Shown here in pieces: positions 11,087 to 51,551 of a DNA stretch of 64,000 nucleotides (within the stretch, counting starts at the first letter, position 1; every line of letters starts with the position of its first letter). The position numbers and the translations under genes were made by a program. Location: assembly GCA_015487555.1 (NCBI GenBank), contig WFPK01000104.1, positions 1 to 64,000 on the forward strand, read 5' to 3'. The notes beneath the pieces are model-generated. The model did no database searches and had not been told where the DNA came from. It worked only from the letters and a program-made list of their open reading frames with translations. This DNA comes from Phycisphaerales bacterium (GTDB taxonomy: Bacteria; Planctomycetota; Phycisphaerae; Phycisphaerales; UBA1924).

Positions 11087-11130
11087 TCGTGTACAAAGGC
11101 AGCGGGGCGAACAGGAAACGAAAGTAGCTT

Positions 11131-16698: not shown

Positions 16699-16860
16699 TC
16701 TGGCGGGAGGATATTGAAGTCGTGGGGGCATGAAGAATAGGACGCCGATGGGGATGGGTAGGTTGATGGGAAATCTGTATGCACCGTGCAGATGGATGAC
16801 GGGCCGAGAATAGATGGAAGTCATGGTGCAATCGCCCGGCGGAAGGGCGAGGAGATAGAC

Positions 16861-19800: not shown

Positions 19801-22734
19801 AACGCTGATTTCCTGATTCAGGTGCTCGCGTTCCAGTTGCACAATCCATACGACCAGGACATCAGTCTGGGCGGGTCGAGCTATAACGGTACGCCTTTGG
19901 GGGGCGATGAGCCGTTGACTCGTCAGCGGGCCTACCAGAATGAAGAAAATGCGATCGATCCAACATCGAACTATCAGTTTGACTACTACATCGAGTTTGC
20001 GGGGCGGTTCTTCAAGGTTGCGAAATACATCGAGTGGTATCCCACCGTGAATAACGCAGAAAACTACACGGTTGTCGATGCGAGCTCGGCTGCGTACACC
20101 TCGGGCTCTGTTCCGAGCCCGGAGGTTGATTTTCCTCTTGGGCACACTCGGATGGAGCCCGGGACGCAGACATCGGCGGGGGCGACTCCTGGCAACTACA
20201 CGAACCAGGCACCCTACAGCGATTTCATCACGCGCAATGTTGTGCTCAGAGCGGGCGAGACGCGTGTGTTCTATGTGATCGCGGACAAGCGGTTTGATGA
20301 TGCCACGCCGGGCAATCTTACTGATGGGTCGAATCCCGATGATCGGTGGGCAAGATCGCTCGATGCGTGGGAGGCGGGAATCCCGGCGGGGTTCACGAAT
20401 CTTGTGCCTGGCAATGACCTTGATCTCGATGGGCTTCCCGATGGACCCGGCGGCGATCCGCGCGGGTGGACTGGCCCTGCGGAACAATGGGTTGAGCATC
20501 AGTTCCGCGTGATGAATGGGGGGACGGGGATCGATCCGGTGATGATGATGGAGTTTGATCCGCGTGACGGCAAGCTGCTCAACGAGACGGGCTTTGAAGA
20601 CCTCACGACACCGAGCGCATCGCCTTTGTTTCCCGCTCCGATTCTCGGGCGTACAGATGCGCTCGAGGTTCGGCTCTGGAAGAAGATCGTCACCCGAGGC
20701 GAAGAAACCGTCGAGCTTAGCTCGGCCGATATTCCCAATCCGACGAAGCGCAATGTGGTCGCGAATGATCTGCTCGTCGATCGGATGATACTTGGTGAAT
20801 CACTCGCTTCGCCGATCGCTTCGGGCGATTTCAAAATCGTCGATACGGTTTCGTATCGTGAGGACTTCCCTGTTCCGGGTTCGGAGATGGACGACTTGGG
20901 TGTTCGCAATGACAACACCGGCGTGACGATCGCGGCGTGGAAGACCAATCGGCGTGCCGATAGCGATACGCAAGAGCCGCCTTCGATCGGCGAGGTTGTG
21001 CCCTGGATGCTCCGCTCGTCTGCTGCTCCGGGAATCACCCGCCAGAGCCTTGTGAGTTTTATTTCCGGGACTCCTGTTGCCAGCGATATCTTTGATGGCG
21101 ACGATCTCGCCGATCCTGCCGAGGCGGTGACGATTGCGGGTGACTTTGAGATCAGCCAATCGCTCCTCGCGTTTTTTAATCTCTCGTTGGCCAACGGTGC
21201 CAACGCGATTATCCAGACGATCGCCCTGGCGCCGCATCTCAAGAACGATGTGACCGCCCAGGCGTTTGTTGAAGATGATGCGGCGAATGATTCAATCGGC
21301 AAGTTCCCGCCTTTGATCCTGACGGTGCAAGACCCCGCCAACGATATTGTGCCTGAAATCCTGGTCAATGGGGCAACGATCAAAGACACCCCACGCCTGG
21401 CGGACTTGCTCTTGGCATGGGGGATCGGGCCTGCGTTCTCGCCGAGCCCTGTCCGTGTCAATCGGCTTGATTATGTCCCTGAGGAGTGGATGACGGGCCC
21501 AGAAGCCATGGCGACGGCGTTGGGGATCAATGCGCCCAACCCGGCGGGCCCGTTGTTCGATGACATCGACAGCATCTGGAAGGACACTTACGATCTTACC
21601 ATCGGCGATGTCGTCCTCGATAACGGACACCTGGCGATTGATAACTATGTGTCGTATGTCAATACAGACCTCAACATCCCGCCGACCTTTGATCCGGTGG
21701 TCGATATCCCGCGTGGAACCGGGGTGCCGATGGCCCTTGGGGTGATCGACCATGCGCGGGCGATTGCGCCGATTCCTCAGGTTTCGGATCCATCATCTCC
21801 AACCCCAGATCAGATACTCCGTATGGCGCTGGGGCGGGCGACCTTCGGGACGGTGAATATCAATACCGCCCCGATCGAGGTGCTGCGTTTGCTTCCGGGG
21901 TTGACACCAAGCCGAGCGCAGTATATTTCTGGCGGCATGGCGACCAATGCGTGGTGGGGCAAGGACTTTGCGGGCACCAAGCTCCCGCCGTTGACCAATC
22001 CGCCGCTTGGATCGGGCACACTTGATGATTTGGCGGACAACCCGGATGTGGCTGCAGCGATTATCGCCTACCGGGATCGGACCTATGGCATCCCCAACAC
22101 GGCGGCACGGCCTGAGCCCTATGGACTGAACTTCTACGACAACGCGCCGATGAACTTGGGGCCGACCGATCCCCAGCTCTTTGCCAACAACATGCGAGGG
22201 GAGTACCCAACGATTCTGCCGTTGCCTGTAAACTCGAATGCGCCAGTCGATCGCAGTGCGATGACTGGGATCGACGGCATCCGCTCAACACCCGGATTTG
22301 GCTCACTCGGTGAGTTGCTCGCGGTGCGGATTGACCCCGCTTTGGAAGTGACTGATCCCACTCGTTGGAACATCCTCAAGCACCTCTCGATTCAGCAGTA
22401 CGGATTCGACGAAGAGGCATCGGGGATCGAATCGAATGTGACGATCATGTCGCAACTCTTCAACGGCACCAGCACGGGGACGACCAAGGATGACTACGCC
22501 GAGAAGATTTCGATGGCCAACTCGGTCCTCAATACGATCTCAGTGCGGTCGGACTACTTCGCGGTCTGGTTTGTGGTGCACGGGTACCAAGAGTCAGATG
22601 TGAAGAATCTCCGCCCGGAGGATCCCTTGGTGCCTTCGATCAAGAAGCGGTTCTTGATGGTTGTGGATCGGACGAATGTGATCGAGCCGGGCGATAAGCC
22701 CAATATCCTGGTCTTCAAGGAGCTCCCGTATTGA
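16861..22734 (+). CDS. Giant GspK/PilX-like pseudopilin-family protein (~1957 aa)
   Basis: RKGSALLIVIGTLALMSVFAAVYISVGRTDRRA N-terminus lacking Glu5; C-terminal VNINTAPIEVLRLLPGLTPSRAQYISGG (GspK-like helix-hairpin-helix region) and a similar VNVNTATDLL segment earlier. Confidence 0.8.
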   Translation: MKIEQSNTPFVLDARIRARALSQRSEASRKGSALLIVIGTLALMSVFAAVYISVGRTDRRAANAVKARVAQQNISQNFGEALSTVIGNDRLDAFVQWNGIDPQDPFGLREVTDAPYTDWTRRSESLFVDGRDLFTPVGGPFSIQNLNQGNDFSVASDPWLASTTPVYLGNPGNASAGITDRPFSTYLPFETNYPNAKNFLDNRDWLQISNFAPDGRFVNLVNLRPNSYSGFDGLVDGDIGGFSAQSGTGVSEDPADGRRIRRMSNYLSLWKMADPTNPESLIQTQDPANGGFIWFPGQDQNSPVTGILPINEIANTPAVWTMYQRFMYMPMNQPFQTLNRNGQVSSWADPDYPAYQYADADGDGMADSRWFELTAARDKVQGDSDQTRTDIEVMYDRKDYRFFLAARAVDLSSMVNVNTATDLLVPPTREYPLGLTPADVDLRRLLTMQDAAGDYTANNTHNLPLSYAQLHRPYIGEVGVEPRFGPWIPSAATGWEQRNLNRNVTDYWLYKHEYDRAASGGSGDLRELENSSTSMLVGRYAYDALRQGIMLGNSLSGAYEGFDYAYQMPSERQHLLQYERDPSDIGMIPARITAQKRIEQYRQVGQLDPTNLGTSLARGTDFGSGLYGMDDLVELLTFHGLNDPEVTTRLERVTTGRYRSPNADTLQTQRFGPLMSNRPLSLDRQQHGMALIDITNDPSTAPSATDRELRAPNGRISFNSMAHMALTPRNKLTTISGAVPLVPTGVVENPSRPEALTQLLAASDLAGILSNANQLFGLYTSSLAGALDTPETFFADATYWPTDVNLFQNQLTSTLFYGHRGPELALRIAAHTAVNMADMMDSNTDPTIATVIVDNDRGQVVRDYFNNDLASGGGFDPVTDPEYTLYPGIADGNLFDPGVNTLPNGNLPDKRQAVNVYGFEAMPVLTEVSVLYAYTDASDRGGGGDKDYFDSVPIIRRGVVIYPRREDIDEISINGDVSPGNADFLIQVLAFQLHNPYDQDISLGGSSYNGTPLGGDEPLTRQRAYQNEENAIDPTSNYQFDYYIEFAGRFFKVAKYIEWYPTVNNAENYTVVDASSAAYTSGSVPSPEVDFPLGHTRMEPGTQTSAGATPGNYTNQAPYSDFITRNVVLRAGETRVFYVIADKRFDDATPGNLTDGSNPDDRWARSLDAWEAGIPAGFTNLVPGNDLDLDGLPDGPGGDPRGWTGPAEQWVEHQFRVMNGGTGIDPVMMMEFDPRDGKLLNETGFEDLTTPSASPLFPAPILGRTDALEVRLWKKIVTRGEETVELSSADIPNPTKRNVVANDLLVDRMILGESLASPIASGDFKIVDTVSYREDFPVPGSEMDDLGVRNDNTGVTIAAWKTNRRADSDTQEPPSIGEVVPWMLRSSAAPGITRQSLVSFISGTPVASDIFDGDDLADPAEAVTIAGDFEISQSLLAFFNLSLANGANAIIQTIALAPHLKNDVTAQAFVEDDAANDSIGKFPPLILTVQDPANDIVPEILVNGATIKDTPRLADLLLAWGIGPAFSPSPVRVNRLDYVPEEWMTGPEAMATALGINAPNPAGPLFDDIDSIWKDTYDLTIGDVVLDNGHLAIDNYVSYVNTDLNIPPTFDPVVDIPRGTGVPMALGVIDHARAIAPIPQVSDPSSPTPDQILRMALGRATFGTVNINTAPIEVLRLLPGLTPSRAQYISGGMATNAWWGKDFAGTKLPPLTNPPLGSGTLDDLADNPDVAAAIIAYRDRTYGIPNTAARPEPYGLNFYDNAPMNLGPTDPQLFANNMRGEYPTILPLPVNSNAPVDRSAMTGIDGIRSTPGFGSLGELLAVRIDPALEVTDPTRWNILKHLSIQQYGFDEEASGIESNVTIMSQLFNGTSTGTTKDDYAEKISMANSVLNTISVRSDYFAVWFVVHGYQESDVKNLRPEDPLVPSIKKRFLMVVDRTNVIEPGDKPNILVFKELPY

Positions 22735-34866: not shown

Positions 34867-36279
34867 ATGCCCGATTGGTTGATTTACAATCTCCCCTCCA
34901 TCACGATTCTGCTCTTTGTGACTGCGGTCGGTGCGTGCATCGGGTCGCTGACCAATGTGCTTGTCTATCGCATCCCCCTGGGGCTCGATGTTGTGACGCC
35001 GACCTCCCGGTGCCCCAAATGCAATCAGAAACTCACCTGGCGCGAGAATATCCCGATCTTTGGGTGGATTCTTTTGCGTGGCAAGTGCCGATTCTGCAAG
35101 GCCAGGATATCGGCGGAATACCCGATCGTTGAAACCATCGTCGCCCTGCTCTTTGGCACCATCTACGCGCTCTGGTACATCGTGCCCGATGATGCGATTC
35201 TGGGCTTGGGAAAGATCGCACCCGAATGGGCAGCCAACGGCCCGGCACTGACCTGGCCTGCGATGGTCGTGCTCTTGGTGCTGGTGGGGTCCATGGTCTC
35301 GATGACCATCATCGATGCCCGCACCTCGACGATCCCGCTCGTGCTCACCTGGGTGCCGGCATTGGTGGCCTTATTTTTGCACACCGGGCACGCGATCTGG
35401 TTCCAGACCAAGTATGGCACGCCTGAGATGATGCCCTCCGGGCTCGAAGGGCTCTGGACGGTCGAAAACCTGCGCGCCAAGTGGATCACCGCCCCTGGCG
35501 AGGTCTGGACGATCGCCACCGGCGGGCTGACTGGTTGGCGATTCATCGGGATCGGGCTCGGCGGGTGCCTGGGGCTGATCCTGTCAAACCTGATGCTCAA
35601 GTTCGGTTGGCTCACCCGAAGCTTTGCCGACTTCGAGCAGTGGTATCAGGCCCATCACGAATCGAAGGCGGAAGAGGCTGGCGAGGACGCAGCTGCTGAA
35701 ACCGAACCTGAAGCTGGGGAAACAGAATCTGAATCTCTCGAGGATTGGCTGATGTATCCTTACGCCCGGCGTGAAATGATCCGCGAGCTGGCGTTTTTGT
35801 GCCTGCCTGTGCTCCTCGGACTCGGCGGCGGGTGGTTGATGGTCCAGCTCTTCGGGCAGTGGACAACCGACCCCGAATCCGGATTGGCGATTGCCCCTGC
35901 CGATGCTCCGCTCTGGCTCGTCGTGCTCGGCGGGGTGTTGATGGGGTATCTGATCGCGGGCGGGGTGGTCTGGGCGGTCCGGATCGGCGGGACGCTGGCG
36001 TTTGGGAAAGAAGCGATGGGATTGGGCGATGTGCACATGATGGCTGCGGTGGGGGCGTGTCTGGGATGGATTGATCCGACGATCGCGTTCTTCCTCGCCG
36101 CCTTTGTCGGCGTGGCGTATGCGATTGTGGCGCAGATATTTAGAGGAAAATTGAGTCGGGCGATGCCCTATGGCCCGTTCTTGGCGGTGGCGACGATGAT
36201 GGTGATTCTGGGCAAGCCGATCGTGGAGATTGTGCTTGGTTGGATATTCAAGATGCCCGGAGCTTTGAACTTGCCTTAG
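34867..36279 (+). CDS. pilD: Prepilin peptidase / A24-type leader peptidase (PilD/GspO)
   Basis: GACIGSLTNVLVYRIPLG; CPKCNQKLTWRENIPIFGWILLRGKCRFCKARISAEYPIVE; GLGDVHMMAAVGACLGW. Confidence 0.93.
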   Translation: MPDWLIYNLPSITILLFVTAVGACIGSLTNVLVYRIPLGLDVVTPTSRCPKCNQKLTWRENIPIFGWILLRGKCRFCKARISAEYPIVETIVALLFGTIYALWYIVPDDAILGLGKIAPEWAANGPALTWPAMVVLLVLVGSMVSMTIIDARTSTIPLVLTWVPALVALFLHTGHAIWFQTKYGTPEMMPSGLEGLWTVENLRAKWITAPGEVWTIATGGLTGWRFIGIGLGGCLGLILSNLMLKFGWLTRSFADFEQWYQAHHESKAEEAGEDAAAETEPEAGETESESLEDWLMYPYARREMIRELAFLCLPVLLGLGGGWLMVQLFGQWTTDPESGLAIAPADAPLWLVVLGGVLMGYLIAGGVVWAVRIGGTLAFGKEAMGLGDVHMMAAVGACLGWIDPTIAFFLAAFVGVAYAIVAQIFRGKLSRAMPYGPFLAVATMMVILGKPIVEIVLGWIFKMPGALNLP

Positions 36280-37694: not shown

Positions 37695-39587
37695 ATGGCA
37701 ATTGCCATGGGAATCCTGCTTATGACCACACCCAAGACGCAAAGTCGATTCGGTATCCAAAGGTTCTTTGTTCGTGGCGAGTCACTTGTCGCGACGACGG
37801 GCATGGCGTTTATCGCTATTTTGGCATTCGCTGTCGGCGGGGTGGTGTGGGTTTCTGCGCGGACAATTGATGAATCCGTTCTCGTGCAGAGCGAGGAGCG
37901 CATTCGTGAAACGAGTGCGTTGATCGCTTCGCAATCCGAGCTTCGGCTCAGCGACGCAGACCTCTCGGGTCTGCGCCGGTTGATGCTCGATGCGGTTGCG
38001 TCGGGGATGGTCGAAGAGTGCGAGGTCAGCATTTCGAATCTTGGTGTGATTGCCTCGTCCGATGCTTCGCAGACGCTTGTGACCGAGTTGCCTCAGACAT
38101 GGGACCCATCGCCCGGGGTAGAAGCCAATATCATTCACAATACCGAGACCCACCGTTCGATGATCCACGAGCCTTTGACGGTTGATGGGCGGACCGGGGT
38201 GATGCTCAGTATGGTGATGAATCAGTCGGGGCAGGTTGTCGGGTCGGATTCGATCCGTGCCTCGTCGGTCGGGATCATGAGTGTTGGGTTGATTCTGATG
38301 CTTTTGGTCTATCGCCGATTTCGCAATCGGCTTGGTGCTTTGGCGGGGATCGGCGATGCCCTCGTTGCGGCGGCCGAGGGAGAGCGCCGAATGGCGTGCC
38401 TGGTTGTGGGCGAGCAGCTTGGTCCAGAAGCCAAGGCATGGAATACGCTGCTCGCCGAGCGTGAAGCGCTCGAGCAGATCGAAGCAACACGCGAAATCGT
38501 CGAGGCATCAAGTGGCGGCGGGGTTGAGTCCAGCGGCTTGCCCGCTGCGTGCAATACCCTGACCCAGGGCGTTGTGCTCGTGGATTCTGATCTGAGCGTG
38601 GCCTATGCCAATGGCGCTGCCTGCGTGTTCCTGCGTGTTTCGCGTGAGGAAATGGTCAACTCGACACTCGATGGCGTGCCCGGTTCGGAACAGATCATCG
38701 AAGCGACACTCGCGGTACTCTCGAACCATGGGCCTGCTCGACAAGTCATCGAGCTGGGCAATATCGAGGAAATCGAATCGCAAGGGGCGATCCTGCGCGT
38801 GGTGATTACTCGCGTCGAGGAGGAAGAGGTTCCTCGGGCGATGATCTTTATCGAAGATGTGACCCAGCAACGCCTGGCGGATCAGTCACAGGGCGCATTT
38901 ATCGCCCAGGCAACCCATGAGCTTCGCACGCCTTTGACGACGATCCGTTTGTATGCAGAAGAAGCGGTCGAAGCCGGGAGCGATGACGAGCAGATTCGTG
39001 ACAAGGCGCTCAATGTCATCAACTCGGAGACGCGCCGACTCGAGCGGATCGTCGGGGACATGCTCTGTGTGGCCGAGATCGAAGCGGGTTCGCTCTCGAT
39101 CCGATCCGAGACGATGCGGACCGAGTCTTTGTTCGCCGAGCTTCAGGAAGATTACGAGATGCAGGCCAAGGAGAAGTCGATCGAGCTGGTCTTCGATTTG
39201 CCTCCCAAGTTTCCCTCGATCCAGGCCGACCGGGATCGTTTGGGTCAGGCGCTCCACAACCTTGTGGGCAACGCGATCAAATACACCCCCGCGGGCGGGC
39301 GTGTCGAGGTGAAGGTCAACTTTGCCGAGGATGATGCCATGACTGTTTCGGTGATTGACTCGGGGATCGGCATCGACGAGTCGCAGCAGGAACGAATTTT
39401 TGAGCGTTTCTGTCGAGCGGATGATCGGCGGATTGCTCAGGTAACGGGTTCTGGGCTTGGTCTTGCGCTCGCTCGCCAGATTGCTCGTCTTCATGGCGGG
39501 GATGTGCATGTTGAATCCGAGATTGATCAGGGGAGCACATTCACATTCATGATCCCGGGTTCGCAGGAGATGGCCAAAGCCGCATAA
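37695..39587 (+). CDS. Membrane sensor histidine kinase with PAS-like domain
   Basis: FIAQATHELRTPLTTIRLYAEEA (H box); LVGNAIKYTPAGG (N box); SGIGIDESQQERIFERF; GSGLGLALARQI. Confidence 0.93.
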   Translation: MAIAMGILLMTTPKTQSRFGIQRFFVRGESLVATTGMAFIAILAFAVGGVVWVSARTIDESVLVQSEERIRETSALIASQSELRLSDADLSGLRRLMLDAVASGMVEECEVSISNLGVIASSDASQTLVTELPQTWDPSPGVEANIIHNTETHRSMIHEPLTVDGRTGVMLSMVMNQSGQVVGSDSIRASSVGIMSVGLILMLLVYRRFRNRLGALAGIGDALVAAAEGERRMACLVVGEQLGPEAKAWNTLLAEREALEQIEATREIVEASSGGGVESSGLPAACNTLTQGVVLVDSDLSVAYANGAACVFLRVSREEMVNSTLDGVPGSEQIIEATLAVLSNHGPARQVIELGNIEEIESQGAILRVVITRVEEEEVPRAMIFIEDVTQQRLADQSQGAFIAQATHELRTPLTTIRLYAEEAVEAGSDDEQIRDKALNVINSETRRLERIVGDMLCVAEIEAGSLSIRSETMRTESLFAELQEDYEMQAKEKSIELVFDLPPKFPSIQADRDRLGQALHNLVGNAIKYTPAGGRVEVKVNFAEDDAMTVSVIDSGIGIDESQQERIFERFCRADDRRIAQVTGSGLGLALARQIARLHGGDVHVESEIDQGSTFTFMIPGSQEMAKAA

Positions 39588-39603
39588 GAGGAGTGTCGCA
39601 GGT

Positions 39604-39942
39604 ATGCGCATCGAAACGAATCGACATGGAGCGGTGACGGTGATCAAGCCCGGCGGCCCTGTGATTACTCAGGAGGACGCGACGCAGCTGCGCACGGAGT
39701 CTTTCGAAGTACTGGGCAACACGCTCGGGCGGTTTATCATTGATGTTTCTGAGATGACCTTTGTCGACTCGACCGGGCTCGAAACTCTTGTCGATATCAC
39801 CGACGAGCTTGGTGCATCCGGGCAATCGCTCAAGCTTTGCGGGCTTAGCGATACGCTGCGTGAGATTCTGGCAATTACTGAGCTGACCTCGAAGTTTCAG
39901 CAGTTTGAGGATGTGCAGACCGCGGTAAGGAGTTTCTTATGA
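39604..39942 (+). CDS. STAS-domain protein (anti-sigma factor antagonist-like)
   Basis: FIIDVSEMTFVDSTGLETLVDI; 112 aa. Confidence 0.85.
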   Translation: MRIETNRHGAVTVIKPGGPVITQEDATQLRTESFEVLGNTLGRFIIDVSEMTFVDSTGLETLVDITDELGASGQSLKLCGLSDTLREILAITELTSKFQQFEDVQTAVRSFL

Positions 39943-41732
39943 CTTCGCCTCAAGACAATCATCCGCATCAGGGCATGCGCAGGTCTCAGCGTCCTCGGCT
40001 TGTCGGCGAAGTGCTCATCACCGATGGGCATATTACCGAAGATCAGCTTTCCAAAGCGCTTGTGGATCAGAAAACCGCCGGGCGGATGCTCGGCGAGCTG
40101 TTGGTCGATCAAGGGATGATCTCGGGGGCGACGCTTGTCCAGTCTTTGGCCAAGTGCCTGGGTGTGCGTGGGGTGCAGCTTCGCCATGGGCTGATGGATC
40201 CGAACTTGCTGAATCTCATCGGCGTCGAAGAGGCCGAGCGGCTCAAAGCGATCCCGCTGTTCCGTGTGCATGATACCCTGACTGTTGCGATGTGCGAGCC
40301 TCAGAGTTTGCCGACGATTGATCGGCTTGGCGAACTCACCGGACTCGAGATTCGCCCGGTGCTGGCGCTTCAGGATAACATCCTCGAGTTTGTCCATAAG
40401 TACGCCGAGGGCGATGTGGATGTCGATGCGTTCTTGACAAGCCTTGCCGAGTCTGATGTTGAAGTCGTGGAGCGCGAGCAGGTCGATGAAGGTCCGACGA
40501 CGGACCTCGATCATATGGTCGAAGGCTCGCCGATCGTGAACCTCGTCAATGTGGCCTTGCTCACCGCGGTCAAGGATAAGGCATCAGATATCCACATCGA
40601 GCCCAACAAGAACGGCACACGGGTTCGGTACCGGATTGATGGAGCGCTGCGTGATCTGATGAACCCGCCCCCGGGGATGCACGCAGCGATTGTGTCGCGC
40701 ATGAAGATCATCGGGAAGATGGATATCGCCGAGAAACGCCTGCCTCAGGAGGGGCGCGTGCGGATCGTGGCTGAGGGACGCGAGATTGACCTGCGCGTGT
40801 CGAGTATTCCTACGCTTCTGGGCGAAAAACTGGTGATCCGAATCCTCGATAAGCAGAACCTGCATGTGCGCATGGAAGACCTTGGGTTCCGCCCCGAAGC
40901 GCTCGAGGGCTTCCAGAGAACACTCAGGCTCTCGCATGGGATGGTGCTTGTGACAGGCCCGACGGGCTCGGGCAAGACCACCACACTCTATTCGGCACTT
41001 GATCTGCTGCGGAGTCCTGAGCTCAACATCGTGACCGTCGAAGACCCGGTCGAGTATCAGCTTGATTTGATCAATCAGATTCAGGTGCACGAAGCGATTG
41101 GGCTTGACTTTGCGCGGACGCTGCGCTCGATTCTTCGCCAGGACCCCGATGTGATTATGATCGGCGAGATTCGTGACCAAGAAACGGCAGGCGTTGCTGT
41201 TCAGGCAGCACTCACCGGGCACGGGGTGCTCGCGACGCTGCATACCAATGATGCGCCAGGTGCGGTTGCCCGTTTGGTGGATATGGGTATTGAGCCTTAT
41301 CTTCTCAGCTCCGCGATCAATGGCGTCGTCGCCCAGCGACTCGCCAGAACAATCTGCCCATCATGCACCATGAAATACTACCCCTCCGAGATGGTGCTTC
41401 AGGATGCCATGATCCCCGAGATGACCGGGCGGGCTTTCCGCAAGGGCGCCGGGTGTACGAGCTGTCATGATTCGGGGTTTCAGGGTCGGATGGGGATTTA
41501 TGAGTTCATGGAGGTGACACCCGAGCTTCGCAGATTGATCTATCGTAACGCCCCGACGCATGCGCTTCGTGGATTGCTGCATAGTCAGGGTCAGCTTTCA
41601 TTGCGCGAAGAGGGTGTCCGTCTGGCGATCGACCAGCATACGAGTCTTGAAGAGATTATCCGCGTCACGCAGGTCGATGATAACGAGGGTTCGGGCGATG
41701 AGTTTGCGGGGGAAGTTGGGGTGGCTGCATGA
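39939..41732 (+). CDS. pilB: PilB/GspE-type assembly ATPase with MshEN-like N-terminus and tetracysteine motif (ATPase 3)
   Basis: LVGEVLITDGHITEDQLSKALVDQ; GPTGSGKTTTLYSALDLL; RQDPDVIMIGEIRDQET; CPSC...CTSC. Confidence 0.95.
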   Translation: MTSPQDNHPHQGMRRSQRPRLVGEVLITDGHITEDQLSKALVDQKTAGRMLGELLVDQGMISGATLVQSLAKCLGVRGVQLRHGLMDPNLLNLIGVEEAERLKAIPLFRVHDTLTVAMCEPQSLPTIDRLGELTGLEIRPVLALQDNILEFVHKYAEGDVDVDAFLTSLAESDVEVVEREQVDEGPTTDLDHMVEGSPIVNLVNVALLTAVKDKASDIHIEPNKNGTRVRYRIDGALRDLMNPPPGMHAAIVSRMKIIGKMDIAEKRLPQEGRVRIVAEGREIDLRVSSIPTLLGEKLVIRILDKQNLHVRMEDLGFRPEALEGFQRTLRLSHGMVLVTGPTGSGKTTTLYSALDLLRSPELNIVTVEDPVEYQLDLINQIQVHEAIGLDFARTLRSILRQDPDVIMIGEIRDQETAGVAVQAALTGHGVLATLHTNDAPGAVARLVDMGIEPYLLSSAINGVVAQRLARTICPSCTMKYYPSEMVLQDAMIPEMTGRAFRKGAGCTSCHDSGFQGRMGIYEFMEVTPELRRLIYRNAPTHALRGLLHSQGQLSLREEGVRLAIDQHTSLEEIIRVTQVDDNEGSGDEFAGEVGVAA

Positions 41733-42952
41733 ACCTGGGCTACACCGCTTATGACAAGTCTGGCGCCTTGCGCGAAGGGGTGATCGAAGCTTCGAGCAAG
41801 GAAGAAGCGACCGAGATACTCCGGAAGAAGGGATTGTTTGTCTCATCGGTCGAGTCGTCGGGCAGCAAGGCAGGAAACAAGAAGTCATCAAAGACCTATA
41901 GCCGAAAGAAAAAGGTTCCTGCGAAGATTGTCGCCGGATTTGCCCGAGAGCTTGCGGTGCTGGTCTCGACGGGCACGCCTTTGATTGATGCGATGTCGTC
42001 GATCGAACGCCAGACGACCAACGAGGCATGGGCGCAAGTGCTCGGGCGTGTTCGTTCGCGTCTCGAAGAGGGCGATGCGCTCTCAGTTGCCCTAGAGGGT
42101 GATCGGCAGGCGTTTGATGCGGTGTTTCGGTCATTGGTCGCAGCGGGAGAATCGTCTGGGCATCTCGATGCGATGCTGATGCGTGTGGCGGTGCTGACAC
42201 GAAAGCAGGCGCAGATCCGATCCAATGTGCTTGGCGCATTGATGTACCCGATTCTGCTGATGGGTGTCGGGATATTCGTGGTTGGATTATTGATTGGTGT
42301 GGTGTTGCCGAGATTTTCGGGGATGTTCGAGACACTCGATACTGCGTTGCCGCCTTCGACCGCGGTGCTGATGGCGATCTCGGAGTTTGTTCGATCCTAC
42401 TGGTGGGGTGTGATCCCGGTGTTCATCGCGACGATCTTCGGGATTGTGTGGTGGGTCAAAAGCCCTGCGGGGCAGCTGATGATTGGTAGTGTGGCGTTGC
42501 GGATTCCCCAGCTCGGCGATATTCTCCGCTCGTTTATGACTGCTCGAATTACGCGTTTGATGGGTGTGCTGCTCGAAGCGCGTGTGCCGATGCTCGATGC
42601 GATCAACCTTACCCGCGAATCACTCGGGCACGAGCGATACCAGAACCTGATGACGCAGGCCGAGCAAGCGGTGACACGGGGCGAGCCGATCAGCACCGCC
42701 TTTGGGTCCGATGGGTTGATGGTTCCCTCTGCGTGCGAAGCGATCCGCAACGGCGAGCAATCCGGACGATTGGCCGAGGTGATGATGCATGTTTCTGATT
42801 ACCTCGACGAGGACAACGAGACAGTGATCAAATCGCTTTCATCGCTCATCGAGCCGGTCATTATGATCGTGCTTGGTATCTTAGTCGGCTTTGTCGCCAT
42901 CAGTATGTTCTTGCCCTTGTTTGATCTCACAGCAACCGCAGGAGTCCAATGA
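41729..42952 (+). CDS. pilC: PilC/GspF inner-membrane platform protein (second copy)
   Basis: GYTAYDKSGALREGVIEASSKEEATEILRKKGLFV...FARELAVLVSTGTPLIDAMSSIE; GEQSGRLAEVMMHVSDYLDED. Confidence 0.94.
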   Translation: MNLGYTAYDKSGALREGVIEASSKEEATEILRKKGLFVSSVESSGSKAGNKKSSKTYSRKKKVPAKIVAGFARELAVLVSTGTPLIDAMSSIERQTTNEAWAQVLGRVRSRLEEGDALSVALEGDRQAFDAVFRSLVAAGESSGHLDAMLMRVAVLTRKQAQIRSNVLGALMYPILLMGVGIFVVGLLIGVVLPRFSGMFETLDTALPPSTAVLMAISEFVRSYWWGVIPVFIATIFGIVWWVKSPAGQLMIGSVALRIPQLGDILRSFMTARITRLMGVLLEARVPMLDAINLTRESLGHERYQNLMTQAEQAVTRGEPISTAFGSDGLMVPSACEAIRNGEQSGRLAEVMMHVSDYLDEDNETVIKSLSSLIEPVIMIVLGILVGFVAISMFLPLFDLTATAGVQ

Positions 42953-44016
42953 TGCTTGATATGATTCGCACACGATCGAAACTCTCAGCGATCGGGCTCA
43001 CAATTGATGCCCATGAGTTTCGCGCAGTTCAGCTGATGCAGACCACCAAGGGGATCAGCACGATTGCGTGGGCGGTTTTTCCTCGTCGGGATGATATGGG
43101 ATATGCGGATCATGCCCGGCGTGCGAGTTTGCCCGAGCCCGATGAGCTGCGATGGGCTGCTGGGATTCTGGAGCGCAGGGGGTTTATAGGGAATGCCATT
43201 TCGATCGCACCTTCGACCGCAGAATGCAGCTCGCATGTGATCGAGCTGCCCCCGGCCCGAAGTGGTGTGCCGGTCGATCAGCTCGCCAAGATGGAAGTTG
43301 CCCGCACCAAAAAATGTGGGCCTGAAGATTTCGAGCTTGGATATTGGGCCTTGCCCGCCAAGGGACGCACCCAGGAGACCCTCGCGGTGGCGTGTCCTCG
43401 GCAGGTGATCGACGACACCATCGAACGCTTTGAATCGGCAGGCTTTGTGCCTGTGGGGATTGACCTGCTCGAGCTGGCGATCAACCGGGGCGGGCAAGAT
43501 GGAGCGGAGGAAAACGAGATCAACGCATCGCTTCATATCGGGTGGAGGAGTTCGCTGGCGGTGCTCTCACTTGGCGAGACGGTGATCTATGTTCGTCGCA
43601 TCGAACATGGCGCAAGCGGTGTTTGGGATATGGCAACAGGACGCTATGGGCTCTCTCCTAGGGGTGCCGATGCGGTCATCGATGACCAGAAGCTCGCGGA
43701 TGGATCAAGGGGGTACGCAAAGGTCAAGCGGGCAACCTGGTCGGTGCTAGCTGCCGAGCTCGCCAGGGAGCTCGATGTCACCATCGCATATGTTGCCCAT
43801 TCGTTCCGGACTGCGCCGCTTGGGAAAATTTTCCTCTCGGGGTATGGGTCGGTGAATCCTGTGATCGACGAGCATCTCGATAAGGTTCTCGGGATTCCGA
43901 TCGAATGCGCAGCACCTTCTGCCCTGGTCAAGGGGATCGGATCAGGGCAGGAAATCTGGTCGCTGGCGTGTCGATTGTCCACCGCCTACGGGCTCGCTGC
44001 GAGGTTTGACCGATGA
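42949..44016 (+). CDS. PilM-like actin-fold pilus assembly protein
   Basis: IGLTIDAHEFRAVQL...ELPPARSGVP...IGWRSSLAVLSLGETVIYVRRIEHG...IFLSGYGSVNPVIDEHLDKVLGIPIE; position in operon. Confidence 0.75.
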   Translation: MMLDMIRTRSKLSAIGLTIDAHEFRAVQLMQTTKGISTIAWAVFPRRDDMGYADHARRASLPEPDELRWAAGILERRGFIGNAISIAPSTAECSSHVIELPPARSGVPVDQLAKMEVARTKKCGPEDFELGYWALPAKGRTQETLAVACPRQVIDDTIERFESAGFVPVGIDLLELAINRGGQDGAEENEINASLHIGWRSSLAVLSLGETVIYVRRIEHGASGVWDMATGRYGLSPRGADAVIDDQKLADGSRGYAKVKRATWSVLAAELARELDVTIAYVAHSFRTAPLGKIFLSGYGSVNPVIDEHLDKVLGIPIECAAPSALVKGIGSGQEIWSLACRLSTAYGLAARFDR

Positions 44017-44624
44017 AAACGACTCCGCCACCAATGGTCAATTTGATTCCTCAGGAGTACCTCGATCAGCGATTGCGCTTGCATTGGATGTCACGGTGGG
44101 GTGTTGCGATTGTATCGACCGCGATCGTCATTGGTATCCCCGGGGTGTATGTTGGCGGGTCTGCCGCGTTGACCGATTCGGGGATGTCCGAGCAGATCGC
44201 TGAGACGAATATGGAATATGCCCGCCATCAGCAGGCGATTCCGATCCTGCGCGAGCAGCTTCGATTGCTCGCTGCCGAGCAGGAGGTGCTTGACCTTGTG
44301 GAGAATCGGATCGAGTGGCGCACAGTTTTTTCGGTGCTGATCAAGACCGCCCAAAGCGATGTTCGGTTCCGTAGAATCAGTGCTTCGGGGGGCGGGGTTG
44401 AGGGTGATTCTCCCATCGAGATTCATATCGAAGGATTGGCTCCGACACAGACCATTGCCAGGTCGTATGTGGTCGGTCTTGAGAAGGCCAATATCTTCGA
44501 TACAGTCGAGCTGGTCGAGACAACGCGCGAGCAGATCAATGAAATCGAGCTGATCCGATTCCAGATCGACATCACGGTGTTGGGAAGCACGATTCAACCG
44601 GAGGGAGCAAACGATGCCGGGTAA
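44013..44624 (+). CDS. PilN-like bitopic assembly protein
   Basis: MVNLIPQEYLDQRLRLHWMSRWG N-terminus; single TM then coiled coil; order after PilM. Confidence 0.65.
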   Translation: MKTTPPPMVNLIPQEYLDQRLRLHWMSRWGVAIVSTAIVIGIPGVYVGGSAALTDSGMSEQIAETNMEYARHQQAIPILREQLRLLAAEQEVLDLVENRIEWRTVFSVLIKTAQSDVRFRRISASGGGVEGDSPIEIHIEGLAPTQTIARSYVVGLEKANIFDTVELVETTREQINEIELIRFQIDITVLGSTIQPEGANDAG

Positions 44625-45177
44625 TCAATCTTCGGGAAATCGTCTGTTGGGCATCCACTTTGTGGGCGGATTGATCTGCGTGCTCATCGCCGGGTCGTCG
44701 ATTTACTTTGCAGGCAGCTCGATTTCCAAACGCCGGGGGCTCTTCTTTAGCGCTCGTCATGAGTTGGCCAATGCCAAATCGCAACTCAACGAGTCGATCA
44801 AACAGCGGACATCGCTCGCTGGGCGGGTGCAGGTGCTCGAGCAGGAGTCGGCGACCAAGCTCGAGCTTGTTTCGGTCAAGGAGCTCAACGCCAAGACAGC
44901 AGCGATCGTCGGCCTTGCAGAGTCACTTGGCATCCGTATCGACTCGTTACAACCCGAGGAGCGCATTTTAGACAAACGCGTCCCGGTGCAGCCTTTGCGG
45001 TTCAAAGGGCTGTCGGATGCGGACGATGTTTTCGCGTTTCTTGGACTGATGAGTGAACGGATGCCCGATATCCATATTCATTCAATCGACATCCTGAGCA
45101 GCACGATGGAATCGAGCGAGGTCCAGATCGAGATGCAGATGTATTGGTTTGTCGATCCTGCCGACGCAGGAGCATAA
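44614..45177 (+). CDS. PilO-like bitopic assembly protein
   Basis: Single N-terminal TM, coiled coil, ferredoxin-like C-terminal pattern (LRFKGLSDADDVFAFLGLMSERMPDIHIHSIDIL). Confidence 0.6.
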   Translation: MPGNQSSGNRLLGIHFVGGLICVLIAGSSIYFAGSSISKRRGLFFSARHELANAKSQLNESIKQRTSLAGRVQVLEQESATKLELVSVKELNAKTAAIVGLAESLGIRIDSLQPEERILDKRVPVQPLRFKGLSDADDVFAFLGLMSERMPDIHIHSIDILSSTMESSEVQIEMQMYWFVDPADAGA

Positions 45178-45229
45178 ATTTTCGCAAACTCATTTGCACT
45201 CCTCTGGAACGCAATGGTTACTTGACTCC

Positions 45230-45799
45230 ATGGGACTCACAACAGAACGCAAGGTATTTCTCGGATTGGCATGTGTGGCGGGGTTGGCGCTGGTGATCGA
45301 CCAGGGATTTATGGGGCCAAAGCAGGCTTCGGCAGATATCGCCCCCGCAGACTCATCGCCCCCGGCATCTGAGACTGTCAGTGTGCCTACCAGTGCGCCC
45401 GCAGGCAAGCCCGCTGCGATGGTGCTCATCGACCGGCTTGAATCATTGGCTTTGTCAGATCAGGGCGAATCGTTGGGCGCATCATTCTCGCTCACCAAGC
45501 TCGTCGAGCCTTCCATCGGATTGCCGATAACCGACGGGACAAGCACATCCGAACAGGAAGAAGACTCGACAGCAAGTTTCCCATTGATCGCACCCAAAGC
45601 CAATGACTTGCCAATCCTCTCATCGGTCATGCCCGCCAAGAACGGCGGCGGGGCGGTCCTGGGCGGGAAACTGCTCAGGGTTGGACAGGTCGATCCAAAC
45701 GGATACCGACTTGTGCTTGTCCATGCGCGATCGGTGCTTGTCGAGCGCGATGGGGTGCAATACGCGATCGAAATTCCGACCATCTCGGGTCATGAGTGA
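45230..45799 (+). CDS. PilP/GspC/GspB-like periplasmic linker protein
   Basis: N-terminal TM; disordered linker; C-terminal LGGKLLRVGQVDPNGYRLVLVHARSVLVERDGVQYAIEIP; operon position. Confidence 0.45.
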   Translation: MGLTTERKVFLGLACVAGLALVIDQGFMGPKQASADIAPADSSPPASETVSVPTSAPAGKPAAMVLIDRLESLALSDQGESLGASFSLTKLVEPSIGLPITDGTSTSEQEEDSTASFPLIAPKANDLPILSSVMPAKNGGGAVLGGKLLRVGQVDPNGYRLVLVHARSVLVERDGVQYAIEIPTISGHE

Positions 45800-45932: not shown

Positions 45933-46427
45933 ATGTTTGCACCCCAAGGCGTTGCCCACCCCGTTCGTGCTCGTAGAGCGTTTAGTCTGATTGAGCTTGT
46001 AATTGTGGTCGTGATCATCGGGATCATCGGCGCGATTGCGATTCCTCGTATGAGCCGAGGTGCAGCAGGTGCAGCGGATTCGAGCCTTATCGCAGATTTG
46101 GCGGTGATGCGCAGTGCGATTGACCTCTACAAAGCAGAGCATGGCGGAACGCTTCCTGCATTGGCCACATTCGAAGAGCAGCTTACGACATACACAAACG
46201 ATGCAGGCACCGCCAACGCATCGAAGACATCAACTTACTACCTCGGTACCTATCTTCGAGAGATTCCCACACTCAAGGTGGGGTCCAACAAGGGTAAGAA
46301 CGCGATCGTTGCCACTCAGGGCGGCACAACCGCCGGGTGGGTCTACAACGAAACCACAGGTGCGATCAGTGCAAATCTGCCCGATACCGAGCTTGATGTT
46401 CGGGGTGTTCAGTATAACTCATACTAA
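45933..46427 (+). CDS. Type IV pilin / GspG-like major pilin candidate
   Basis: RRAFSLIELVIVVVIIGIIGAIAIPRMSRGAAGAADSSLIADLAVMRSAIDLYKAEHG. Confidence 0.9.
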   Translation: MFAPQGVAHPVRARRAFSLIELVIVVVIIGIIGAIAIPRMSRGAAGAADSSLIADLAVMRSAIDLYKAEHGGTLPALATFEEQLTTYTNDAGTANASKTSTYYLGTYLREIPTLKVGSNKGKNAIVATQGGTTAGWVYNETTGAISANLPDTELDVRGVQYNSY

Positions 46428-46440
46428 TCAGACCTTCTGA

Positions 46441-47043
46441 TTGGATAGTCCACTTTCGCCCCGGTCTGTAAAAGCAGGTCGGGGCGTTCCCGATTCAGGA
46501 GCACGCGAGATGGACACCGGGGATTCAACAATCACACGCGGGTTCTCGCTGATCGAGCTGGTTTTGGTGATCGCGATCATCGGGATCATCACCGCGATCG
46601 CGTTGCCCAAGTTCGCCCATGCCGGTTCGGGTCGCAGGCTCATGGCTGCAAAGAGCACGCTGCTCTCGGACATCGAGATGATAACGCTCCGCGCCAGGGC
46701 GAGCTCGAAGGTGCATGTGATCAAGTTTTACCCTGACGAGAACAGGTACATCGTTGCGGAAGGTGCTGTGATTGATCGTGAGTCGGTGATTCTGAGCCGT
46801 GACTTTGACGATGAGCCCTACACGGTGGGCATATCGAGGACGAATCTCGGAGCCGACCAGTCCGTGGTCTTTTCGGTCTATGGCGACATCAGCCCAGGGT
46901 TTACCGTTGGACTCACAGACGGAGAAGTTGAAATCGCAGTTGTGGTCGGCGGGGTCGCGAGTTTGGGGATCACAGTCACCGATGCGATCAGCGCCGATGA
47001 AGCAAAGGCACTCGATGTCGGGATCGGCGAGGTGGGGTTATAA
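46441..47043 (+). CDS. Pilin-like protein (GspH-like)
   Basis: TRGFSLIELVLVIAIIGIITAIALPKFAHAGSGRR. Confidence 0.88.
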   Translation: MDSPLSPRSVKAGRGVPDSGAREMDTGDSTITRGFSLIELVLVIAIIGIITAIALPKFAHAGSGRRLMAAKSTLLSDIEMITLRARASSKVHVIKFYPDENRYIVAEGAVIDRESVILSRDFDDEPYTVGISRTNLGADQSVVFSVYGDISPGFTVGLTDGEVEIAVVVGGVASLGITVTDAISADEAKALDVGIGEVGL

Positions 47044-47045
47044 TC

Positions 47046-47564
47046 ATGGTTCGATATTCCAAGATCGTACACCCTCGTTCTGGGTTCACACTGATCGAAG
47101 TCGTGACGAGTCTTTCGATCATGTCTGTCCTGCTGCTCGGGCTCAGCGGAGCGGTGATGGTGGGCTCTCGTGCAATCCCCAGCGCCACTGACATTGGTCA
47201 GAGTGACCAGGTGCCCATTGACGCCATCAACAGGATCCGAAGCGAACTCCGCGAAGCAAGTGCAATTCGGTATCAAGTCGGGGCGAATGAGCACGAGATG
47301 AAGATTCAGATCAAGGATTCGGGCGCTTCTGGAACACCCAGTGTGATCGTGTATAGATACTCACTTGCTTCTGGAACACTCATGCGTAAGGCCGATGCCC
47401 AAGATGCGGTTACGCTGGTTTCGGGGATCAGCTCGCTTGTCATCGAGATTACAGATGATGGGGCAGATGCAAGTGTCGTGTACCTGAGGATGACCGTCGA
47501 GGGAACCATCAAGCAGGTCTATGAGATGCACGCCCTGCTCCCAGACAAGCCGAGGGTAATCTGA
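47046..47564 (+). CDS. Pilin-like protein (GspJ/PilW-like)
   Basis: RSGFTLIEVVTSLSIMSVLLLGLSGAVMVGSRAI. Confidence 0.87.
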   Translation: MVRYSKIVHPRSGFTLIEVVTSLSIMSVLLLGLSGAVMVGSRAIPSATDIGQSDQVPIDAINRIRSELREASAIRYQVGANEHEMKIQIKDSGASGTPSVIVYRYSLASGTLMRKADAQDAVTLVSGISSLVIEITDDGADASVVYLRMTVEGTIKQVYEMHALLPDKPRVI

Positions 47565-48085
47565 TGCGTAGACACTTGACACATCGGCGTGGAATATCAA
47601 TGGCCGAGACCGTGATCTCGATCCTGCTCATCGGGTTTGTGCTGGGTTCGACGCTTCAAATTGTGGGCCCAATGGCCCGGTCAACATCGGTCCATGCCGA
47701 CAGGTTGATCGCTGCAAATCTTGCGGCTGAACTCACCGAAGAAATCGCAACCAAACGGTGGGCGTCGCCTTCGGCTGGGGACCCAGACCTGATCGGCCCA
47801 GATGTGGGCGAAATCAGAGCAACCTACGATGATGTCGATGACTATGACGCATGGTCCGCAGCCCCGCCGATGCTCTCGACAGGGGTGCCCAATACCGCAT
47901 TGGCAGGGTGGTCACGCAGGGTCAATGTTGATCATGTCCTGGTGAGTGATGCGTCAACAATCTCGGGAACCTATACCGGGCTCAAACGGGTCACGGTCAC
48001 GGTATTCAAAGGCGATATTGAGCTTGCCCGAGTTGAATCATTGCACTCAGATAGTGCTGACTTGCTTGGGTTTATTGTCCCATGA
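47564..48085 (+). CDS. Pilin-like protein (GspI/PilV-like)
   Basis: RRGISMAETVISILLIGFVLGSTLQIVGPMARS; Glu5 present. Confidence 0.8.
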   Translation: MRRHLTHRRGISMAETVISILLIGFVLGSTLQIVGPMARSTSVHADRLIAANLAAELTEEIATKRWASPSAGDPDLIGPDVGEIRATYDDVDDYDAWSAAPPMLSTGVPNTALAGWSRRVNVDHVLVSDASTISGTYTGLKRVTVTVFKGDIELARVESLHSDSADLLGFIVP

Positions 48086-48095
48086 GGAGTAAGCG

Positions 48096-49262
48096 ATGAG
48101 CAGATATGCAGACTCATCCAGGCGTGGTTCGATCTATCTGATCACACTCATCACCGTCGTCGCCATTGTCTCGATGGTGCTCATCGGCGTCTCGCTTCGA
48201 TCATCGGGGAACACCAGGTCGGCGTTGATCGAGGAGATGGCCAAAGGGGGCAATGGTGTGCTCGATGCTTCCGAATATGCGATCAAAGTCATCGAATCAG
48301 ACCCCTTATGGAGACTCGCGGCACAATCAGGGAAAGTCTTCGAGAAGATGGCAGTGGGGGATATGAGCTATTCTGCGACAGTGGTCGATGGGGGGACTGG
48401 AACAAAGCCGGTCTACACCACATCCACTTACCGGGTCATCGCAACCGCAGAGAAAAGCACAGCGAAATCATCAGCATCAATCGAAATACTCGCAACAGAG
48501 ATGGATTATGCGGCATACCTGAGGACAATGGGCGCGGTCCACTACTGGGCGCTTGATGAATCTTCCAATCCCCCTCAGGCGATCGATCAGATCGGTTTGT
48601 ACCACGGCTCATATCTGAAACCATCGGTCGCGGGCGCAGGTTACAACGATGAAGCAGGGCTTGTACCTGTATTGGCCGACGATAATGATTATGTCAGTGT
48701 GCCCTGGGGGGAGAGCTTTGAAATCGAGAATGGCACCATCGCGATGTGGGTGAAGTGCACAGGGGCGAGCAAGTGGTCAAACTACAGCTTCCTCGGGATG
48801 GATTATAAGCTCAATGGCGTGCCTGCGATCAATATGGCAATTTGGGGGTATGGAATCAAGGTCTACATCAATGATGAGGGGGAGTATCGGTGGAGTTCGG
48901 CGCTGAGTACACCACTCGATACCATCGCTCCAAATACCTGGCATCATGTCGCAATGATCTGGGGCGATAAAGGGCTCGCCATCTATATCGACGGGGTAGA
49001 GCGGGCGAGCAAAGGGTCGAATACCAATGGACTTAAATCGGCCAAGGCAGGCGACGGCGGCGAGCAGCCATTGCATATCGGCGCGGGATACAACACGAGT
49101 GTGCCGAGTACGCCCGAAGATGGGTTCGATGGATCGGTCGCTCATGTTGCGATCTTTGATGTCCAGCTCAACCCGGCCCAGATCGCCGAACTCGCAGCCA
49201 TCAAGCCCGACAAGCTCAACTTGAGCCTGGTTGAAGACTCATGGGTTCGTGTGTTTGAATGA
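48096..49262 (+). CDS. GspK/PilX-like minor pilin with C-terminal LamG/concanavalin A-like domain
   Basis: RRGSIYLITLITVVAIVSMVLIGVSLRSSGNTR N-terminus; C-terminus AVHYWALDESS...IENGTIAMWVKCTG...NTWHHVAMIWGDKGLAIYIDGVERAS...FDGSVAHVAIFDVQLNPAQIAEL. Confidence 0.85.
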   Translation: MSRYADSSRRGSIYLITLITVVAIVSMVLIGVSLRSSGNTRSALIEEMAKGGNGVLDASEYAIKVIESDPLWRLAAQSGKVFEKMAVGDMSYSATVVDGGTGTKPVYTTSTYRVIATAEKSTAKSSASIEILATEMDYAAYLRTMGAVHYWALDESSNPPQAIDQIGLYHGSYLKPSVAGAGYNDEAGLVPVLADDNDYVSVPWGESFEIENGTIAMWVKCTGASKWSNYSFLGMDYKLNGVPAINMAIWGYGIKVYINDEGEYRWSSALSTPLDTIAPNTWHHVAMIWGDKGLAIYIDGVERASKGSNTNGLKSAKAGDGGEQPLHIGAGYNTSVPSTPEDGFDGSVAHVAIFDVQLNPAQIAELAAIKPDKLNLSLVEDSWVRVFE

Positions 49263-49267: not shown

Positions 49268-50902
49268 TCAGGCAGCCTGCTGGACTGGAGATTGGGCTTT
49301 GTGCTTGGCAACCATTGTGTCATAGATCGAAAAGTCCAATGACAAGAATGGTTCAACAAGATCAGGGTCGAACTGCGTCCCGGCACATTTCCTGAACTCG
49401 GCAAAGACCTTCTCGCGAGGCATCCCCGAGCGATACGCACGATTCGAGCTCATCGCATCGAAGGTGTCAGCCAGCGCCATGATCCGCGCCATACGCGGGA
49501 TATCTTCGCCCGCGAGATTCTCAGGATATCCCTTGCCGTCCCATCGTTCGTGATGATGGAGTACCCCGGGAAGGATGTCACAGAATTGGGGGATATCTTT
49601 CATGATCTCATGCCCGATCCGTGGATGGGTTTTGATGATCTCAAACTCTTCATCGGTCAGTCGGCTTGGTTTGCAGAGTACCGCTTCAGGCACCCCGATC
49701 TTGCCCACATCATGGACAAGTCCTGAGATGCGGATTCGCTCGGCTTCTTCTTCCGAGTATCCCACCTTGAGGGCAAGCAGTGCCGAGAGCATCGCCACGC
49801 GTTCGGAGTGCCCTTGGGTGTATTGGTCCTTGGCGTCGATCGCTGCGGAGAGGGCGTGGATGGTGCCAATAAAGGTTAGGTGCTGACGGTGGTAGAGCTC
49901 CGCATTTTCCATACACGCACCGAGCATCCCGGAGATGGATTCCATCAGTTTGGTTTCATGGCTTGAGACCTGTGGGTCATCGCCGTTCTTTCCCCCAGCG
50001 ATCAGAACCCCGAGCAGCTCACCATTGCGGTCGATCGGATGCACCAGAATCTGAGGCTCAAGATCGGGCGTCGACCGATCAACAGGGTAAATCTTGGTCG
50101 TGTCCGCCATGCCCAAAGGCTCGGTTGTCCGGATACTCTCGAGCACCGAGCCGATCTGTTCGTCATCAAAGTGCATTGTCCCGGCCTGGTGAATCTCGGT
50201 GCCGATGACCTCAAAGATCGTATGTTCTTTATTGATTACGCATGCGACCCAGTTGTAATCGAGCGTGGCTGCGATCTCGGTGATCCCATCGAGGATAATC
50301 CCGCCAGGTTCATTGAGTGAGCCCATCGAGCGTCCAAGGTCCTGAAGCGTGGTGACGACTTCGTACGAGTCGCCGAGTTGTTCGGAGAAGAGTTCGATGG
50401 TCTCATCATTGCGCTTGATCGTGCGAAGATCATCGAGCATCCAGGCAATGGTTGAATGGATATTGGGCACATACTCATCGACGAGCGTCGCACGCTCTTT
50501 GAGCAGGTGCTTGAGCGCAGAAACCTGAAGCTGATTGCCCGCACACCCCTCCTCGATGTGCTTGCTCTCGAGAATCTCAGGTCCAAACCCGATCGCGACA
50601 AAGTACCCCGTCCGACGATCCCGATGCTCTTCAACAAACGGAAACACCCAGAGCCCAGGATGGATTTCCTTGGGCTCGAGTGTGTCGTGGGCAGCCCAGA
50701 TCATCGCGGTTTCGGCCATCAGCATCCGGATCGGACGCGAGCTGAGCCAGAGCCCGAGCATGCTCGGCGCGATCGGGTCATTGACCGGCATCCCGTTGAG
50801 ATCAAGACGCCAGCAGGCGAGTCCGAGCTCGAGGCACCGGTTGAAGAGCGCACCTGGGATTGGATCGTGTTGCTTGGGGGCTCTGCGGATATTCATGCAC
50901 AT
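49268..50902 (-). CDS. HD-GYP-type phosphodiesterase with N-terminal GAF-like regions
   Basis: AIDAKDQYTQGHSERVAMLS; SGLVHDVGKIGVPEAVL; GVLHHHERWDGKGYPENLAG; MALADTFDAMSSNRAYRSG. Confidence 0.93.
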   Translation of the reverse strand: MCMNIRRAPKQHDPIPGALFNRCLELGLACWRLDLNGMPVNDPIAPSMLGLWLSSRPIRMLMAETAMIWAAHDTLEPKEIHPGLWVFPFVEEHRDRRTGYFVAIGFGPEILESKHIEEGCAGNQLQVSALKHLLKERATLVDEYVPNIHSTIAWMLDDLRTIKRNDETIELFSEQLGDSYEVVTTLQDLGRSMGSLNEPGGIILDGITEIAATLDYNWVACVINKEHTIFEVIGTEIHQAGTMHFDDEQIGSVLESIRTTEPLGMADTTKIYPVDRSTPDLEPQILVHPIDRNGELLGVLIAGGKNGDDPQVSSHETKLMESISGMLGACMENAELYHRQHLTFIGTIHALSAAIDAKDQYTQGHSERVAMLSALLALKVGYSEEEAERIRISGLVHDVGKIGVPEAVLCKPSRLTDEEFEIIKTHPRIGHEIMKDIPQFCDILPGVLHHHERWDGKGYPENLAGEDIPRMARIMALADTFDAMSSNRAYRSGMPREKVFAEFRKCAGTQFDPDLVEPFLSLDFSIYDTMVAKHKAQSPVQQAA

Positions 50903-51291
50903 TTTCCCTTGGAATCGGTGCCTGCCTCGATCAGTTCGGTGATATACCCAAGCAGGTCTTTGGCGCTAAATGGTTTCGAGAGCAGCTTGCGAATCGAGGG
51001 GAGCTTCTCGATTTCGCTTTCGATTGCATATCCTCGGGCGGTGAGCAGGATAATCGGGATTCCTGCGCACTTCGGGTTCGCTGCGAGCTGCTCGGCGAGC
51101 TCGATCCCCGAGAGGTACGGCATCTGGAGATCGGTGACGATGACATCGGGGGTGCGTTCGATCGCTGCTTTGAGCGCCATCTCCCCATCTTCGACCACGA
51201 GCACCTCCATCCCCGCTCGTTTGAGCTTGTGGGCGATGATGTGCGTGATATGAGGCTCATCGTCTGCGAGCAGGATCAATGGTTGAGGCAT
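50893..51291 (-). CDS. Stand-alone response regulator receiver (REC) protein
   Basis: ILLADDEPHITHIIAHKLKRAGMEV...DVIVTDLQMPYLSGIEL...IILLTARG...LLSKPFSAKDLL. Confidence 0.92.
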   Translation of the reverse strand: MPQPLILLADDEPHITHIIAHKLKRAGMEVLVVEDGEMALKAAIERTPDVIVTDLQMPYLSGIELAEQLAANPKCAGIPIILLTARGYAIESEIEKLPSIRKLLSKPFSAKDLLGYITELIEAGTDSKGKCA

Positions 51292-51551
51292 GCGGTACTC
51301 CAACAAAATGGGGGGAAAAGAAGAGGGCCCCTCATTGCCCGGTATCGGAAAAGACGGGCCCGATCTTGCCCAAACTTTGCCCAGATCATGCGGATTGAGG
51401 GCGTTTTGGACTGTACGCTCACACCTGCGAGCATAAAGTTGAGCTATCGGACGCACGGTGTTCGGTCAGGCCAGTGCCCAGGCCGATACCGATGTTGTTT
51501 CCGTTGGCATAAGGGCGAGCGAAACGCTCCCAATCGTGATAGAGTGCAGGC

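Follow-up and report, generated by a model that had tools for sequence, protein, structure and literature searches.

The final gene of a type IV pilus operon in a Phycisphaerales genome encodes a K-like minor pilin of 388 amino acids with an inserted LamG module (48096..49262, forward strand, in the 64,000-nucleotide stretch of DNA analysed here, the window). We consider it probable, at roughly two chances in three, that this protein (K) is a tip minor pilin, that its inserted LamG domain is of lectin type, and that the site of insertion is a slot for swappable ligand-binding modules. A tip adhesin is the best reading of K; we infer both its location at the tip and the ligand and role of its LamG module. 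Pilins bearing LamG are already known, among them PilC of Streptococcus sanguinis and the PF13385 pilins of a published survey. Three things look new: the carrier itself, a slot for insertions in a pilin at the K position, and the evidence that modules have been replaced repeatedly; in the open literature, which is only part of all literature, we found no paper on the carrier.

A conserved pilin–LamG reading frame

The gene runs uninterrupted from ATG to TGA and starts 10 bases past the I/PilV-like gene, in agreement with the sequence-only reading, which had placed it last in the pilin run. The protein begins MSRYADSSRRG^SIYLITLITVVAIVSMVLIGV, a short charged leader up to a glycine followed by about 21 hydrophobic residues, as in a class III signal. 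The leader MSRYADSSRRG (48096..48128, +) is predicted to be cleaved after Gly11, and prepilin peptidase is the enzyme that we infer to do so; position −1 is Gly in 23 of 24 K sequences (window and relatives) and Ala in the other. Mature position 5 is Ile in the window and I, V, L or M throughout, with Glu5 in 0 of the 24, which bears out the earlier description of a minor pilin N-terminus that lacks Glu5. The Pfam N_methyl family (PF07963) matched neither the window protein nor its homologues.

The search for the same joined frame in relatives, proposed with the sequence-only reading, found it genus-wide and also in further genera, at 24–71% identity. Each of the 20 other genus members encodes K (contig ends leave two of the copies as halves, and one copy contains masked bases), and the nearest named relative, L033 from an uncultured Phycisphaerales genome, is 71% identical. 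The assembly is a draft of 115 contigs, and an assembly or annotation accident could in principle have run a truncated pilin gene together with a LamG gene that has no relation to it; conservation refutes this, as full-length identity falls to about 30% among relatives with the layout unchanged, and we regard such an accident as excluded.

The module spans residues of about 140–374 (48513..49217, +), with a Pfam core at residues 196–364 (48681–49187) that matches Laminin_G_3 (PF13385) with E = 1.6e-19 and a score of 71 bits, where the cut-off is 27.6. This core contains NTWHHVAMIWGDKGLAIYIDGVERAS, the motif from which a LamG/ConA-like module had been proposed, and the module is thus real. Trp282, Gly329 and Gly346 are invariant in 23 homologues and Gly300 is nearly so. 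The mean pairwise identity of the LamG part (0.36) is as high as that of the pilin strand region (0.33), in line with a working domain. Among solved structures, the profile of 23 LamG-bearing homologues matched 4qvs best (2.1e-20) and also matched a domain of the arabinanase AbnA (5hon; 5.9e-9) and pentraxins. An NCBIfam match to TafC (5.6e-6) was rejected as an identity for K: it is far under its cut-off and limited to the LamG part, and we found no paper on it.

Structure prediction had been suggested as a check of the jelly-roll fold, and the LamG core passed it. The AlphaFold model of K was built from a 21-sequence alignment comprising the window protein, L033 and LamG fragments from viral contigs; the fragments were found by a LamG DNA pattern, and two protein queries of the viral contigs gave no match. 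The best blocks of the LamG module reach a pLDDT of 80–89, the model is weak beyond the core (mean pLDDT 60) and the pilin part is likewise of low confidence. In Foldseek, the AbnA domain 5hon_A ranks first among single-domain matches (target TM 0.75, r.m.s.d. 3.5), ahead of many other ConA-like lectin domains. The core therefore has a jelly-roll fold by AlphaFold and Foldseek, with moderate confidence beyond it. The one other LamG match in the genome is a small secreted protein at a separate site, the C terminus of which resembles a PEP-CTERM sorting signal.

The pilin carrier and the insertion point

The carrier (residues 12–138; 48129..48509, +) consists of the hydrophobic helix that lacks Glu5 and strands predicted at residues 82–87, 90–98, 112–120 and 123–131; the pilin part of the AlphaFold model is a helix with four strands. 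LamG had been taken to reach the C terminus, which is incorrect: about 14 more conserved residues (LSLVEDSWVRVFE) come after the module and form the conserved C-terminal strand of the pilin (49218..49259, +). The consensus of this strand is PGSW.R.V, a motif that as a simple pattern fits about 41 of 54 Ks and is thus not universal. A search with the N-terminal 140 residues recovered a K-like pilin from 54 of 61 genomes of the family, nearly always in a single copy. Across about 50 genera the first ~130 residues are kept and the final strand is kept in most, and the middle differs.

Two orthologues without a module, L055 (153 amino acids) and L063 (157 amino acids), retain the carrier. In L063 the carrier passes directly into the last strand, ...YRMIPGSYRIEFE, with a junction that reads ...RSMIFEPTINPAAGQPAYRMIPGSYRIEFE; its counterpart in the window is ...SASIEILAT-[LamG]-LSLVEDSWVRVFE. 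These module-less forms indicate that the module lies between the presumed penultimate and last strands of the pilin, inserted and not appended. The earlier proposal of a direct fusion thus stands insofar as one reading frame joins LamG to a minor pilin, and fails as a plain C-terminal fusion. The last strand (residues 384–387 in the model) has a pLDDT near 31, so the case for its rejoining the pilin sheet comes from comparing sequences.

A carrier model trained on Ks with the repeat module alone (see below) scored the window protein at 50 bits, compared with a maximum of 41.9 among 540 decoys in which the real hydrophobic helix was retained and the remainder shuffled. The model also recognises Ks with LamG, CBM or nested modules and those with no module. 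The Ks of some genus members score 36–45 bits, within the decoy range, which makes synteny the stronger argument for orthology. No Pfam family was recognised in the carrier, and the GspK and PilX families gave 0 matches in 16 K homologues even at E = 10; the GspK/PilX-like label of the sequence-only reading accordingly holds for the position in the operon and not for family membership by sequence. Cadherin matches of the carrier profile were dismissed as chance because they fall on a short, acid-rich stretch.

Three known systems bear comparison. K resembles GspK and PilX in being the final minor pilin gene and in its missing Glu5, and GspK also has an extra domain inside its pilin fold, but the insert in GspK is a helical one placed between strands 3 and 4 (PMC6561018), and K lacks a match to either Pfam family. 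In ComZ of Thermus thermophilus, a solenoid is inserted between the penultimate and last strands (PMC6561018). ComZ, similar to K, has no recognised pilin motif; it has been argued to be a tip pilin and its nearest fold is GspK, but it carries a β-solenoid as its insert and binds DNA (PMC6561018). As far as sequence can tell, K would have the ComZ topology, and the K profiles had no pilin among their matches to solved structures, so that kinship in sequence with ComZ is not supported.

The contrast previously offered for K was MshQ, in which LamG-type sequence occurs in an MSHA-like pilus locus as a separate protein that is no pilin. That contrast loses its relevance because lectin-bearing pilins are already known (PMC9934059, PMC8179133). 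PilC of S. sanguinis is a minor pilin with a ConA-like lectin module and a proposed place at the pilus tip (PMC9934059), for which binding to sialylated glycans and sulfated glycosaminoglycans is proven (PMC9934059). PilC has a canonical Glu5 and an Ig-like module, with its extra modules at the C terminus, whereas K lacks both Glu5 and an N_methyl match, carries its module before the last strand and occupies the K position. PF13385 is also among the modules grafted on pilins in an InterPro survey (PMC8179133); that survey started from the N-terminal entry IPR012902 (PMC8179133), and would have missed K given that the carrier matches no Pfam family.

Repeated replacement of the module

LamG is one of several modules found in this carrier. 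Outside the genus, LamG occurs in 10 K loci (5 confirmed by Pfam) and is consistent inside several genera according to the genome lists; CBM_4_9 occurs in 6 loci (2 confirmed by Pfam, the rest assigned by a local model). A repeat-rich module of about 270 residues, present in about 32 loci, has no match in Pfam or the PDB, and may be a β-helix, judging from its repeat-like pattern. In two Ks (L065 and L066) the repeat module itself houses a CBM_4_9 domain, one module nested in another; Pfam confirms this in L065. Two loci are module-less and a few are unassigned. Nine weak carrier matches (L123, L124 and L126–L132) were left out of this count as members of a different pilin group; they form a separate K-like group (RRGVAMLLVLIALG...DWR) in genomes of the same family.

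We mapped the five module classes onto a maximum-likelihood tree of the operon ATPase and platform protein (E+F; 50 genomes, 986 columns, with G252 dropped owing to its very long branch) and found at least 9 changes among them. On the starred branches alone, LamG must have changed 4 times (bootstrap range 4–4), the repeat module 5 times and CBM_4_9 3 times. Strongly supported branches unite sister pairs that differ in module: G089 (LamG) with G078 (repeat), and G025 (CBM) with G035 (repeat). These counts establish that the module has been replaced repeatedly in an orthologous K pilin; they neither separate gain from loss nor show whether recombination was the source of the modules.

The module classes also bear on what LamG binds. 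LamG domains often bind proteins, and LamG/ConA-like folds do so in many systems; the same tip pilin might therefore use LamG to hold a protein, such as a partner adhesin or the J subunit, or to stabilize the tip complex, with no lectin activity. The size of J also differs between relatives, as this explanation might lead one to expect. It nevertheless seems unlikely to us, as six relatives carry in its place CBM_4_9, a family that binds carbohydrate (from Pfam in 2 of the 6 and in one nested form, and from a local model in the others), the nearest single-domain structural match of LamG is the accessory domain of a polysaccharidase, and the carrier of two relatives does without a module. Because the module exchanged for LamG in some relatives belongs to a carbohydrate-binding family, LamG at the tip most likely binds glycans.

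Operon context and a putative tip adhesin

In the operon regions that we examined, the gene order HK-STAS-E-F-M-N-O-P-G-H-J-I-K recurs across the family and its module classes, with K as the last gene of G-H-J-I-K. Where a contig ends within the region, the genes beyond are missing, and three genomes (G252, G040 and G049) deviate from the order. In the window, where all of these genes are on the forward strand, the operon is headed by a histidine kinase (37695..39587; PF00512, PF02518; syntenic) and a STAS-like protein (39604..39942; named from sequence and syntenic). A PilB/MshE-type assembly ATPase (39939..41732; PF00437, 1.3e-131; PF05157), a PilC/GspF platform protein (41729..42952; PF00482), PilM (42949..44016; PF11104, 3.6e-7) and PilN (44013..44624; PF05137, 2.1e-5) follow, and then proteins assigned to PilO (44614..45177) and PilP (45149..45799) from position alone, with no Pfam match. 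The pilins begin with a G-like, probable major pilin (45933..46427; N_methyl; TIGR01710, 2.2e-9, under cut-off) and continue with an H-like minor pilin, the true start of which is probably internal (46441..47043; TIGR01708, 2.5e-9, under cut-off), a J-like minor pilin in a short form without a module (47046..47564; N_methyl; relatives vary in length) and the I/PilV-like minor pilin (47564..48085; a weak TIGR02523 match, 0.0022; syntenic). A prepilin peptidase (34867..36279, +; PF06750, 2.4e-31; PF01478) ends 1.4 kb before the first gene of the operon.

The operon contains no secretin gene; genome-wide, four secretins and four PilT-family proteins score over cut-off, so the parts for a retractile pilus are present. 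A search for PilY1 (PF05567) gave 0 matches in 61 genomes, but its control was likewise empty, so this result does not speak for absence. The operon might instead build a short type II secretion pseudopilus in which K is a GspK-like cap and LamG selects or holds secreted polysaccharidases, given that pseudopili are also capped by K and that the G-, H- and I-like genes weakly match models of type II pseudopilins; the presence of PilM and PilN families, an MshEN-type ATPase that suits MSHA or type IV pili and the four PilT copies make this quite improbable.

Several neighbouring features were observed. Where the sequence of a relative extends far enough upstream, the kinase and STAS-type genes (37695–39942) nearly always lead the operon, which suggests dedicated regulation of the pilus operon. 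Downstream and convergent (49268–51456, reverse strand) are genes for an apparent HD-GYP protein (HHERWDGKGYP) and an apparent response regulator, and cyclic-di-GMP control of the pilus is possible. A second type IV filament system at 4813–22734 has two PilB-type ATPases, a platform protein, four large pilins, a PilT (6657–7679; TIGR01420, 450 bits) and a K-like protein of 1982 amino acids (16786–22734) with a weak helix-hairpin-helix match. Among relatives (L093–L172), J pilins are about 150–166, 307–310, 337–368 or 530–604 amino acids long, apparently through inserted or added domains without a Pfam match. A long J accompanies every CBM_4_9 K, with three independent pairs, too few for a test.

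For the tip adhesin, we propose the following sequence of events. Prepilin peptidase would cut off the leader of K, which, lacking Glu5, could not neutralize the N terminus of a pilin above it and would thus top an H-I-J-K tip complex. In the HIJK model a K without Glu5 caps the complex (PMC9934059), and the absence of Glu5 is expected of K subunits (PMC9934059). LamG would sit in the loop between the penultimate and last pilin strands and be pushed outward by the growing fibre; for ComZ it has been argued that a bulky insert is hard to place anywhere except at the tip (PMC6561018). Once exposed, LamG might bind extracellular polysaccharide or surface glycans and so mediate adhesion, and retraction by PilT with LamG bound would pull on the surface. 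The carrier would serve as a slot that holds LamG, CBM_4_9, the unnamed repeat-rich module or nothing. We think it rather likely that K, together with J, provides dedicated slots through which the pilus tip has been repeatedly retooled, perhaps in both pilins together, with the rest of the machine unchanged.

It is a long-standing question in type IV pilus biology how one and the same machine can gain different binding specificities. Here a single operon and one orthologous, putative tip pilin offer a natural series in which the module has changed at least nine times, with removal among the changes and some of them between sister genera; the idea of modular pilins thereby becomes directly testable through module swaps. 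Surveys based on N_methyl miss this putative tip subunit itself. For planctomycetes of this group, the findings suggest how cells may cling to particles or algal glycans.
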